A DNA stretch of 35,443 nt from Chloroflexota bacterium (GTDB taxonomy: Bacteria > Chloroflexota > Anaerolineae > Anaerolineales > RBG-16-64-43): the NCBI GenBank assembly GCA_026389925.1, contig JAPLGX010000169.1, positions 1 to 35,443 on the forward strand, read 5' to 3'. Shown in pieces: positions 11,458 through 16,283 of this stretch. The stretch's first letter is position 1, and each line of letters begins with the position of its first letter. A program made the translations under genes and the position numbers. Below the pieces are notes generated by a model, which searched no databases, was not told the origin of the DNA, and worked only from the letters and a program-made list of their open reading frames with translations.

Positions 11458-12210
11458 CTATCCGCCAGTTTTCTCGACCACCCACAGATGAGAAAGGCCG
11501 AAAGCGCGCAGAGGCGTGTTTTCGAGGGCTTGCAGCACGCCGCGCAGCAGGCGCCCCAGACGGGGCGCGCGGGCTACGATGTTGTCGTACCCGCCGAAGA
11601 CGATCGTGCGCTGCACCGGGTGCGCCGGCAGGCCGCGCAGCAGCCCATCGAGTTCGCGTGAGGTGTAGGCGCGAACATGAGGCGCCAGGCGGTCGCGCCA
11701 TGAGCGGGGCAGGTAGTTGACGAGCGGGATATTGCCGAAGTGGTAGCGCCCGCGCCAATACACACCGTGGGTCTCGAAGGGGTAACTGCGATTCGGCACG
11801 AAGAGGACCAGCCGGCCGCCGGGCCGCAGCACGCGCATGATCTCGCGCAGCGCCTGGCGATCATCCGCCACGTGTTCGAGCACTTCGTTGGAGAGGACCA
11901 GGTCGAACGAGGTCGAGGCGAAGGGCAACGCCTCCGCCTGGCCGGCGAGCAGCCCCGCGATTCCTGCTCGCGAGCCCTCACGCACGCGTTCGATCTCGAT
12001 ATCCAAGCCGGCCACGGAGCGCGCGAAGGGCCGCAAGGCGCGGACGTACATCCCCAGCCCGCAGCCATCCACGAGCACGCGCGCCGAGGCGAGCTGCGGC
12101 GCGGCACGTCGGATCATCTGCAACCGGCGCTCTTGGCCGGCGCGCCACACGTGCGAAGGCTCGCCGCGTTCGGCGGCTTTGCTTAAGCTGGAGGGCTGGT
12201 CCACTGCCAT
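11458..12210 (-). CDS. Class I SAM-dependent methyltransferase
   Basis: [28 protein letters not shown]...[39 protein letters not shown]. Confidence 0.88.
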
Positions 12211-12638
12211 TCCTCTTTGTGGCCGAAGCCTTTGCGGTTATCGACCACGCGCGCCCAGCTCAGCCGGAAGAGGTGCAGCCGGGCGCCGGCCAGCGCTGCC
12301 TGCAACTCACCCACGAACGGAAAGCGGGCGCGGTACACCTGCCAGCCGCGCTCGTGCTGCGCGCCGTCCACAAGCTGCGCCGTCCCGCGCATCTGGGCGC
12401 CGCGGATCTCCTGCCAGGCGCGGCTGGGCGGGAAGAGCGTTACCGCCGCGCGCGGGTCGCGCGCCAGGTTGCGGCCATGCTGCGTGTCGGGTGTGGAGAG
12501 AAGAAAGAATTCGAGCTGCGGGGTGTAGGCGAAGTACACCGCCGCCGCCATCGGCTCGTCCGCAGCGCCTGCCGTGGCTAAAGTGAAAGCGTGGCACTCG
12601 GCGCACAGCTCGAGCAGCGCAGCTACAGTCGGTTCCAT
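12183..12638 (-). CDS. Pyridoxamine 5'-phosphate oxidase-like FMN-binding protein
   Basis: [68 protein letters not shown]. Confidence 0.75.
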
Positions 12639-13184
12639 ACCTTGAGCAGGTCGCTTTCGATGCCCAGCCGCGCCAGAACTCGCCCCACCGTCTGGTCGAC
12701 AATGTCTTGAATCGTGCGCGGGTGAGTGTAAAAGGCGGGTAGCGGAGGCATGATCACCGCGCCGGCCTCGGCGGCCTGCGCCACCAGCCGCAAATGACCC
12801 AGAGGGAGCGGGGTCTCGCGCACCACAAGCACCAGCGGCCGGCCCTCCTTGAGCGTCACGTCGGCTGCGCGCCATAAGATCGGCCAAGTAGGAGGTGGCA
12901 ATCCCCGAGAGGCTCTTCATCGAACACGGGATGACGGCCATGTCGCGCGTGGCAAATGAGCCGGAGGCGATCGCCGCTCCGATGTCGTCGGGCGAATAGC
13001 TGGTATGAGCCAGCGCCTCCACCTGGCTCAGCTTGTATTCGGTCTCCTGGGCAATCGTCACCCGCGCGGCCTTGGAGAGCACCAGGTGCGTCGCGACCTG
13101 AGTGCGCTGCAGCGCCTCCAGCAGGCGAATGCCGTAGGTCACGCCGCTCGCGCCGGTTATCCCCACAACCAATCGTTCGATCAT
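12623..13184 (-). pseudogene. ubiX: UbiX-family flavin prenyltransferase, interrupted by a single frameshift near 12870-12876
   Basis: Frame 1: MIERLVVGITGASGVTYGIRLLEAL...ASGSFATRDMAVIPCSMKSLSGIATSYLADL; continues in another frame: WRAADVTLKEGRPLVLVVRETPLPLGHLRLV...MPPLPAFYTHPRTIQDIVDQTVGRVLARLGI. Confidence 0.85.
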
Positions 13185-13234: not shown

Positions 13235-14230
13235 CTAGAAGGGCAACGGCGAGGCCAGCAGGCTCAGCAGCAGCTTGACCGCATTCTCGGCGTCGCTTAG
13301 ATCCACCATCTCGGAAGCGGTGTACAGATAGCGGCACGGCAGGCCCAGGCCCGCGGTCACAATTCCCGCGCGGCTGGTCTGGATGGCCGTCGGATTGGAG
13401 GCGGAGGTATCGAAGACGCCGAGTTGATGCGGCAGGCGCGCCTCGCTGGCCCGCCCCGCCATCCATTCGACGATGCGCGGATCTGAAATGGCGAACCCCT
13501 CGCGTGCGCGGATGACCGGGCCGCGCCCGAGCGCAATGGCCGCCGGGCTGCCGCGCGGAATGTCGCTGGCCGGCGCCGGGCCAAGCGTGAGGGCCACCTC
13601 CGGCTCAAGGCTGTAAGCCGCGGTACGCACGCCGCGCGAGCCCACCTGCTCCTGGACGCTGAACACGAACTGCACTTCATGCGGTGTGCGCTTGAGATGG
13701 CGCAAGGTTTCGAGCAGCACCGCCACGGCCGTCCGCCCGCCGAGGGCTTTGCCCACCAGCCGGCCGTCGATCTCGGCCAGCGAGCGGTCGAACACGGCGG
13801 CCTCGCCCGGTTTGAATGTGCTGCCCTCGCGATCGACGGCGCCCACGTCGACGAAGAGTTGGCGCACGGTTGGGAGAGCCGAGGCCTCGCTGCGCGGCTC
13901 GAGTCCAATCACGCCCACCCGGCCGTCGGCAAAGCGCACCCGCGCGCCCACGCAGTGCAGCGGGTCAAGCGGCCCCAGGGGGGCGAAGCGCAAGAATCCA
14001 TTCTCATCCACATGCGAAACCTGCAGGCCCACTTCGTCCATCGGCGCCGCCAGCATGATGCGCCGGCCGCTGCGCGCCTTCTGCTTGATCACCGCGTGCA
14101 GATTGCCGAGTGGGTCTTCCGAGATGTAGTCCGAGAGACCGCGTAGTTCCGCGCGGATGATCTGCCGCAGCGCGTCTTCGCGCCCGGAGGGGCCGTAGGC
14201 CTCGGATAGTTTGCGGATGAGTGCTTTCAC
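13235..14230 (-). CDS. M42-family (glutamyl aminopeptidase/TET-like) protein lacking the canonical metal ligands
   Basis: M42 fold motifs with AAPMDEVG (H to P), KALGGR (DD to GG), QEQVG (EE to EQ), LTLGPAPASD (D to G), RYLYTASEMVD (H to Y). Confidence 0.8.
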   Translation of the reverse strand: MKALIRKLSEAYGPSGREDALRQIIRAELRGLSDYISEDPLGNLHAVIKQKARSGRRIMLAAPMDEVGLQVSHVDENGFLRFAPLGPLDPLHCVGARVRFADGRVGVIGLEPRSEASALPTVRQLFVDVGAVDREGSTFKPGEAAVFDRSLAEIDGRLVGKALGGRTAVAVLLETLRHLKRTPHEVQFVFSVQEQVGSRGVRTAAYSLEPEVALTLGPAPASDIPRGSPAAIALGRGPVIRAREGFAISDPRIVEWMAGRASEARLPHQLGVFDTSASNPTAIQTSRAGIVTAGLGLPCRYLYTASEMVDLSDAENAVKLLLSLLASPLPF

Positions 14231-14272
14231 ATCGTCCTCCCTCAGCGCCCGGCGCAGCGGCGCGGTCGAGCT

Positions 14273-15421
14273 TCAGCGGATGTCGTCCGGACGCAGGCGA
14301 GCCAGCGCCGCGCGCACCAGGGACACGCTCGCGCGCCAATCCTCCCAATGGATCATCGAGAGCGGCGTGTGCAGGTAGCGCCCGGGCACCGACAGGGAGA
14401 TGCTGGGGATGCCTTTGCGGGCCAGATGAATGGCCGCCGCATCGGTCGAGCCGCCGCCCGGCTGGCGGTATTGATAGGGCAGCCCGGCTGCCTCGGCCGT
14501 GCGCACCAGGTGCTCGATCAGGCGCGGGTTGGGCAGCGTCCCGCGATCGCCGACGTAGATGGCCGGCCCGAACCCCAGACGTGTGTTGTAGGTCGTATTC
14601 TCGCTTCCATCCCACAGCGGCAGGTCGTTGGCCGGCGTGCAGTCGAGCACAATGGCCGCTTGTGGATCGAGAGCATGCGCGGCCACGGCCGCGCCCCGCA
14701 GGCCCACCTCTTCCTGGGTGGTGAACGCGGCCAGCAGTTCGATGCCCCGCGGCGGGTCGAGCACCAATTCGATGAGCGTGGCCACACCCACCCGGTCGTC
14801 GAGGGCCTTGCCGCGCAGTACGTTGCCCAGACGCTCAAAGCGCGTGGCGAACACGGCCGCATCGCCGGGGTGGACCCGCTTGAGGGCCTCCTCCTTCGAG
14901 CGCGCACCGATATCGATGGCCAGCGCCGTGATCTTGTACGGGCTCGGCTCGTCCTCCCAGTCGATGAGATGCGGCGGCGCGCCGCCGATGACGCCCGGCA
15001 CGCGTGCGCGGCCCACGAGCACGGGCTTGGCCACCAGCGCGCGCTCATCGACCCCGCCCACGCGGTCGAACTTGAGCATCCCCTCGGCGGTAACGCCGAT
15101 GACCATCAGCCCCACTTCGTCCATGTGGGCGGCCAGCATCACCCGCAAGCCGCGCCGCGAGCCAGTCCGCGCGTGGGCAAGCACATTCCCCAGCGCATCC
15201 ACCCGGACCTCGTTGGCGTGCCCGGCAATGGCCTCCAGGACGATCTGCCGGACGGCGCCCTCGTCGCCCGAGACGCCGCTGGCTTCGCTCAATCGGCGCA
15301 GAAGCTCGAGCGAATTGCGCAGCACGGCGGGCGAGGCGGGTCGCGGACGAATCCCTCGGCGACGGGCGGCCGGGGCCGGGCGCGGTCGAGCGCGAGGGTG
15401 GGCGGTCGAGGTGCGTGGCAT
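14273..15421 (-). CDS. M42 family metallopeptidase (intact motifs)
   Basis: MLAAHMDEVGLMV, GKALDDRVGVATLIE, TQEEVGLRGA, IVLDCTPANDLP, VPGRYLHTPLSMI; true start may be internal to this ORF (e.g. near RNSLELLRRLSEASGVSGDE). Confidence 0.88.
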   Translation of the reverse strand: MPRTSTAHPRARPRPAPAARRRGIRPRPASPAVLRNSLELLRRLSEASGVSGDEGAVRQIVLEAIAGHANEVRVDALGNVLAHARTGSRRGLRVMLAAHMDEVGLMVIGVTAEGMLKFDRVGGVDERALVAKPVLVGRARVPGVIGGAPPHLIDWEDEPSPYKITALAIDIGARSKEEALKRVHPGDAAVFATRFERLGNVLRGKALDDRVGVATLIELVLDPPRGIELLAAFTTQEEVGLRGAAVAAHALDPQAAIVLDCTPANDLPLWDGSENTTYNTRLGFGPAIYVGDRGTLPNPRLIEHLVRTAEAAGLPYQYRQPGGGSTDAAAIHLARKGIPSISLSVPGRYLHTPLSMIHWEDWRASVSLVRAALARLRPDDIR

Positions 15422-15424
15422 CGG

Positions 15425-16283
15425 CTACTCCCAAACCAGGCGCTGCATGTAATCGTCGTCGAGTGCGGCAATCACAGCCGCGATCAGCCGGCCCGTGCGT
15501 TCGATATCGCCGAGATCCACCACCTCCACCGGCGAGTGCATGTAGCGCACGGGGATACTCACCACCATGGTGGGCACGCCGTCCTGCGTCACCTGCATCG
15601 CGCGGGCATCGGTGCCCGAGTGCCCGGGCATCACCTCCAGCGTGTAGGGGATCTCGGCTGCCTGGGCCGCCGCCTCGAACGTATGCAGCCAGCCCGGGTG
15701 GATATCGGAACCCATGCCCAGTGTCGGCCCGCCGCCCATGGGGAAGACTTTGAACTCCGGCAGGCCGGGCAGGCCCGCGGCGTGCGTGGCATCCACCGCC
15801 ACCGCCAATTCGGGACGCAGGCTGAAGGCGGAGGTGAAGGCTCCGCCGTAAGTCATTTCCTCATTGACCGTCGCCACCGCGGCCACTTCCCAGCGGTGGG
15901 CCACATGCTGCAACTCGTGCAGGCAGACCGTGGGCCACGACGGCCGCGAGAGCGCGCCGGCCATGCACAACGACCGGCTGGCCGGGCAGCAGGCGCGCGT
16001 CCACGCCGCCGATGTCGCTCACGCGCAGGAAGCTGCCAACCACCTGCTTCACCATCAGGCCGACCGCGTCCATGTGAGCGGCCAGCATCACGCGTGGGCG
16101 CGGAGCGGGGCCGCGGCCGTGGCGCAGCGCGTGCAGGCTCCCCAGTCGCGAAACCTCGATCTCGTCCACCAAAGGTTCCCATGTCGGCCGTACCACGTCG
16201 CGCGCCGGCTGCTCGTGGCCTGAGATTCCTGCGGCAGAGAAGAGATCCTTGGCCAACGCGACAAGCTCTTTGCGATCCATCAT
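15425..16283 (-). pseudogene. M42 family peptidase remnant with internal deletion plus frameshift
   Basis: ORF 16283-15861 gives the N-terminal half (VMLAAHMDAVGLMV...PVVVHGRRAL); ORF 15970-15425 gives the C-terminal half (LHELQHVAHRWEVAAVATVNEEMTYGGA...AVDATHAAG...IPVRYMHSPVEVVD); the expected middle region is absent. Confidence 0.75.

Follow-up and report, generated by a model that had tools for sequence, protein, structure and literature searches.

Sequence evidence for a natural M42 pseudoenzyme encoded beside an intact paralogue in one genus of the Chloroflexota

The M42 family protein encoded on the minus strand at positions 13235 to 14230 of the window (the whole 35,443-nucleotide stretch analysed here), called subunit C in this study, carries replacements at all five metal ligands, and on sequence evidence it is a natural pseudoenzyme that has been maintained by purifying selection after the ligands were lost. 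Our main reading, to which we give a probability of about 0.5, is that C is a non-catalytic M42 protein that likely takes part in a mixed tetrahedral particle with the catalytic subunit B, and with subunit A where A is intact. C is the third gene of a tandem M42 unit, A-B-C, that is common in its order. The original prediction was of a ligand-free subunit next to an intact one, suggesting a non-catalytic partner in a TET-like assembly. As an observation this stands, and the protein is conserved (dN/dS 0.17), but the unit is a triplet and not a pair; the third M42 gene had gone unmentioned. The genes of the unit are placed as follows:

13235..14230, minus strand: subunit C, an M42 pseudoenzyme by sequence, 331 aa, all five metal ligands replaced (profile match and ortholog alignment)
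14236..14241, minus strand: GGGAGG, a likely ribosome-binding site that precedes the GTG start of C by 5 bases (upstream sequences)
14273..15421, minus strand: subunit B, by sequence an intact M42 aminopeptidase, 382 aa, 42 bp upstream of C (profile match, 269 bits)
about 15425..16283, minus strand: subunit A, an M42 gene broken by a 209-bp deletion near 15930 (comparison with the congener, G001)

The C gene has 331 codons, from a GTG start at 14230 to a stop at 13235, and both the start site and the ribosome-binding site are also kept in the congener, Chloroflexi bacterium RBG_16_64_43 (G001, MGOA01000011.1; one genome present twice, as L006 and L150). C scores 188.1 bits against Pfam PF05343 (Peptidase_M42), for which the cut-off is 23.2, and its residues 42-320 of 331 cover profile positions 1-292 of 292, which places it in the family on sequence. 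This match to the whole 292-position model, together with a predicted fold that is intact, agrees with the original prediction that fold-level sequence and frame are undamaged. Neither C (best score 144.1 bits) nor B (214.4 bits) reaches the cut-off of 412 for the NCBIfam M42 equivalogs (PRK09961, lys_aminopep_Arch, glu_aminopep, PRK09864). The window forms contig C71 in an assembly of 524 contigs that is 89% complete with 5.3% contamination, and its relatives belong to the Chloroflexota, where most carry the label Anaerolineales or Anaerolineae.

Ligands are numbered here as in PhTET2, with H68, D182, E213, D235 and H323 as the five ligands and E212 as the general base, as given in the part of PMC8993905 that was available. 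Subunit B keeps all six active-site residues (HDEEDH), as its canonical motifs had suggested. When C was aligned with B and with orthologues, its ligand columns read P63 for H68, G164 for D182, Q195 for E213, G217 for D235 and Y303 for H323, so the five replacements first read from the motifs were borne out, on the minus strand. The codons concerned, with two other active-site positions, are:

14042..14044, minus strand: codon 63, CCG (Pro), replaces His68, an M2 ligand (alignment)
13739..13741, minus strand: codon 164, GGC (Gly), replaces the bridging Asp182; codon 165, GGG, is also Gly (alignment)
13649..13651, minus strand: codon 194, GAG (Glu), the general base E212, kept (alignment)
13646..13648, minus strand: codon 195, CAG (Gln), replaces the ligand Glu213; CAC (His) in the congener (alignment)
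13580..13582, minus strand: codon 217, GGC (Gly), replaces the ligand Asp235; GAC (Asp, retained) in the congener (alignment)
13394..13396, minus strand: codon 279, AAT (Asn), replaces the conserved Asp of the GSTDA loop (alignment)
13322..13324, minus strand: codon 303, TAC (Tyr), replaces His323, an M1 ligand (alignment)

In place of the five ligands of an active enzyme, the window therefore has P, G, Q, G and Y and the congener has P, G, H, D and Y, with D235 the sole survivor of the five in the congener. The general base E194 is kept in both genomes of the genus, and C also keeps D65, the Asp that follows His68. Beyond the five ligands, the second Asp of the KALDDR motif has become Gly (codon 165). 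An alignment placing other residues in the metal-binding positions had been named as a way in which the prediction could fail; no other residue falls in those columns, because the flanking conserved motifs align without gaps. Among 162 intact sequences, 71 columns are at least 95% conserved, and all five ligand columns are among them. Nineteen of these 71 columns are changed in the window or the congener, including all five ligands (hypergeometric p = 9e-4), and 17 of the 19 lie after residue 160. With most of the binuclear metal site lost, we infer that the peptidase activity of C has been lost as well.

The loss is confined to one genus in the sample. A match was obtained in 335 of 400 genomes of the order, of which only the matches nearest the window protein were read, and the C sample (110 loci and 80 loci, giving 188 rows and 167 distinct sequences) could miss a dead C in diverged lineages and may include rows of other M42 classes, for example from L034, where the match is B-like. 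All six positions (HDEEDH) are present in 162 of the 167 distinct C-type sequences. The remaining five are the window (PGEQGY), the congener (PGEHDY), L213 (HDAEDH) and two rows that are cut, by an N gap in L031 and by a contig end in L033. Replaced ligands were thus seen among these 167 sequences only in the window and the congener, which are the two genomes, both incomplete (89% and 72%), that represent the genus. The C genes of the genus group with those of the sister genus (support 0.998) and their operon position is identical. One of the 110 loci, L025, was left out of the C count since its frame holds both B and C; its C is intact by eye. The C orthologue at L213:6001-7068 (VGNE01000025.1) reads QAEVG, with the general base Glu changed to Ala, the five ligands kept and a short insertion nearby; as one sequence it was excluded from the ligand-loss count. 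A survey of neighbouring genomes for co-conservation of the dead/active pair had been suggested. On these alignments the pairing is specific to one genus in the sample and not a conserved system, and elsewhere in the order the C gene has the appearance of an ordinary enzyme. The open-access papers searched contained no report of a dead M42 subunit. MEROPS lists non-peptidase homologues in many families, and dead M42 sequences may be on record there.

At least two adjoining M42 genes on the same strand were found in 78 of 80 named loci (a single gene is seen in L175 and L181, and the order is C-B in L222); the labels A, B and C are unreliable in this 80-locus survey, from which only ligand states, gene number and gene order were used. 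Across 21 genomes the six positions are retained in all A and B genes of full length, except for three B genes with Glu in place of D235. Glu at this ligand (HDEEEH) occurs in B of several genomes, with 18 rows called B in the 80-locus survey, where the label may also cover A. No further M42 match beyond the triplet was found in the window's assembly. Two rearrangements of the unit were considered and rejected. An apparent fusion of B and C in G010 (L025, C209), which would have spoken for contact between the two, is a 692-aa open frame in which the join runs through N and is an assembly gap. G003 (L052, C75), from the same family, seemed to have lost C independently, but the break in its C gene is an N gap.

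Subunit A is intact in the congener but lies in two ORF pieces in the window (15428-15970 and 15864-16283). The 209 bp absent from the window are present in the congener (L050, 4227-4435), and their deletion takes out the region of Asp182 and shifts the frame; it may be either real or an assembly fault. On the other side of C, at 12183-13184 of the window (minus strand), one ORF begins as a ubiX-like flavoprotein and continues, across an apparent frameshift, into a PNPOx-like domain; what is left of the ubiX-like protein can be read in the next frame. Most of this ubiX-like/PNPOx-like stretch is absent directly downstream of C in the congener. The truncated A and the apparent frameshift mean that the region may be decaying in the window or that the assembly is imperfect.

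The codons of P63, G164, G165, N279 and Y303 are identical in both species, which indicates that the loss was ancestral to the genus. Codon 195 (CAG in the window, CAC in the congener) and codon 217 (GGC, GAC) differ; this comparison suggests that four ligands were gone before the species split and that D235 was most simply lost later, in the window lineage alone. Trees (FastTree, LG) were built from 17 genomes with full triplets, with the window added for B and C. With branches summed by hand, the path of C, measured from the node at which the sister genus branches off, is 0.52-0.57 against 0.26-0.27 in the sister genus, compared with 0.36-0.41 against 0.57-0.58 for B and 0.49 against 0.46-0.51 for A. 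Relative to the sister genus, C thus evolved at about double the rate, and A and B showed no such acceleration. Relative-rate tests gave the same picture: C has 58 unique changes against 23 on average, with chi2 above 3.84 for 14/14 outgroups, while B was significant with 2/14 outgroups, in the direction of a faster sister genus, and A with 0/14.

This acceleration was followed by constraint. Since the species split, dN/dS (Nei-Gojobori) is 0.173 for C (28.5/726 nonsynonymous and 53.5/267 synonymous sites) and 0.132 for B. With counts treated as independent, dN/dS = 1 is rejected for C (p = 3e-14) and the Nd:Sd of C does not differ from that of B (p = 0.51). A protein that has lost catalytic residues still present in its intact orthologues, and that has been held by selection since, is a pseudoenzyme. 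These rates bear directly on the proposal that the C gene is in the course of being lost, under relaxed selection after the loss of activity that is too recent for frameshifts in C itself. Some observations do point that way: A is already broken in the window, D235 was lost in the window only, and the ligand sites still drift, 2/5 ligand codons differing between the two species against 23/326 others (p = 0.048). However, a dN/dS far below 1 and no different from that of an active gene, a DNA alignment of C without gaps between the species, and the conserved start and ribosome-binding site make a dying gene improbable. Error in the sequencing or assembly of the window is more improbable still, to a degree that makes it almost negligible. 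The window assembly has other possible faults, namely the ubiX-like frameshift and the deletion in A, but the lesion recurs in the separately deposited genome of RBG_16_64_43, which refutes error for four of the five sites and answers the concern that the replacements might be a sequence error. The change of D235 to Gly rests on the window genome alone. In addition, substitutions in ligand codons without any indel are not an error pattern.

C could also have moved to a different chemistry or metal site that uses the replaced residues, such as His195 in the congener. The retention of E194 and D65, and of D217 beside His195 in the congener, would fit this. However, the residues at 195 and 217 are not the same in the two species, and at none of the five columns does the window carry a side chain that binds metal strongly. 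We regard a new chemistry as very improbable. A metal-free M42 dimer that acts outside the A/B particle, in a new role such as peptide or ligand binding or as a regulator that contacts proteins, is a possible but less likely alternative. Dimeric M42 forms exist in vivo and metal loss favours lower oligomers (PMC4745047, as far as the available text goes), a dimeric TmPep1050 has been crystallised (5ne6), and the ligand mutants 5ne7, 5ne8 and 5ne9 are described in their records as folded and solved. Remodelling of the former GSTDA loop and of much of the pocket would suit a new ligand. Against this, C lies directly behind B in one operon in both genomes, and the interface-loop residues Q193 and R199 are kept.

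The predicted M42 fold of C is intact, and poor order is confined to the former GSTDA loop of the active site. The AlphaFold2 model of C (42 sequences) has a pLDDT of 91.6 and a pTM of 0.92, compared with 94.2 and 0.93 for an intact sister-genus orthologue modelled with the same sequences in the alignment. The main difference is at residues 271-290 (pLDDT 68 and 63 in C against 89 and 85 in the intact orthologue), which hold the GSTDA motif and the following helix, spanning 279-286 in the intact protein and 281-284 in C. The top solved matches of the model are M42 proteins, the best being TmPep1050 (4p6y; VIA-align Z 46.8, rmsd 1.5 A over 323 residues, 36% identity; Foldseek TM-score 0.92-0.93). 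Q193 and R199, with Q present in 166/167 and R in 153/167 distinct sequences, have the spacing of Gln206 and Arg212, two interface residues in PfTET3, a match made by motif spacing and not from a printed alignment. In PfTET3 both residues belong to the ligand loop and form a bridge to the neighbouring subunit (PMC4745047, in the text available).

The mixed particle would arise as follows. C began as a member of an ancestral M42 A-B-C operon, and most of its binuclear metal site was lost in the ancestor of the genus; a phase of fast change and then purifying selection as a non-catalytic M42 protein is the part that the sequences support directly. Most likely, folding and formation of the PDZ-domain dimer are unaffected in C, which may then enter a mixed particle with B as a structural or peptide-holding subunit, where it would set the number, spacing or access of the active sites. 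According to the available part of PMC4745047, the active-site metal stabilises the dodecamer in the M42 enzymes studied. C should be unable to bind this metal, and published TET work therefore suggests that C alone is unlikely to form a dodecamer and either depends on a partner or stays a dimer. Retention of the loop contacts together with loss of the metal is consistent with a subunit dependent on a partner; the same two features equally allow a dimer that stands alone in a new role. Several points count against co-assembly. B shows no acceleration that would suggest adaptation to a changed partner, and removal of the M1 metal partly dissociates PfTET3 (PMC4745047, same portion), so C, lacking the metal, might fail to join any dodecamer. 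The truncated A in the window and the small base of two genomes also weaken the case. By analogy with known mixed particles, C could plausibly act alongside B in a TET-like particle. More tentatively, and with the odds somewhat against it, this would be a bacterial TET-like particle with a selected non-catalytic subunit, in which one genus turned a catalytic member of an active triplet into a structural or peptide-holding one that assembles only with an active partner because the metal driving self-assembly is absent.

M42 (TET) particles have been studied as homo-oligomers or as mixes of active subunits, and C appears to be a metal-free subunit kept by selection. As its relatives are intact, the transition to a metal-free subunit can be mapped on a tree and studied by comparison. 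C thus offers a natural test of the published idea that the active-site metal, beyond its part in catalysis, holds the dodecamer together, and it raises the question of whether the A-B-C triplets so widespread in Anaerolineae assemble into mixed particles.

Known systems resemble C in different respects. In Pyrococcus horikoshii, the M42 paralogues PhTET2 and PhTET3 form a defined tetrahedral heterododecamer from homodimers; the portion of PMC4220976 available describes both as peptidases and mentions no dead partner, and for B and C such an assembly is a proposal. A bacterial example is the YtoP-YsdC dimer of M42 paralogues from Bacillus subtilis (PDB 9a5r model), an AlphaFold-Multimer model consistent with crosslinking MS, for which the accessible text of PMC10090944 mentions no ligand loss, unlike C. 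Control of an active enzyme by a dead paralogue is known from the trypanosomatid AdoMetDC prozyme and the deoxyhypusine synthase pair (PMC5201418 and PMC3663545, in the parts available), though the enzymes and organisms are unrelated to C and the analogy is one of principle only. C has its best structural match over the whole length in TmPep1050, an M42 aminopeptidase of Thermotoga maritima. According to the entries, its mutants are H60A (5ne7), H307A (5ne8) and H60A H307A (5ne9), and in an alignment to 5ne7 the columns of H60 and H307 are those of P63 and Y303 in C. TmPep1050 is active, whereas C is a natural protein that has lost all five ligands, two of them lost at the same places as in the laboratory mutants.
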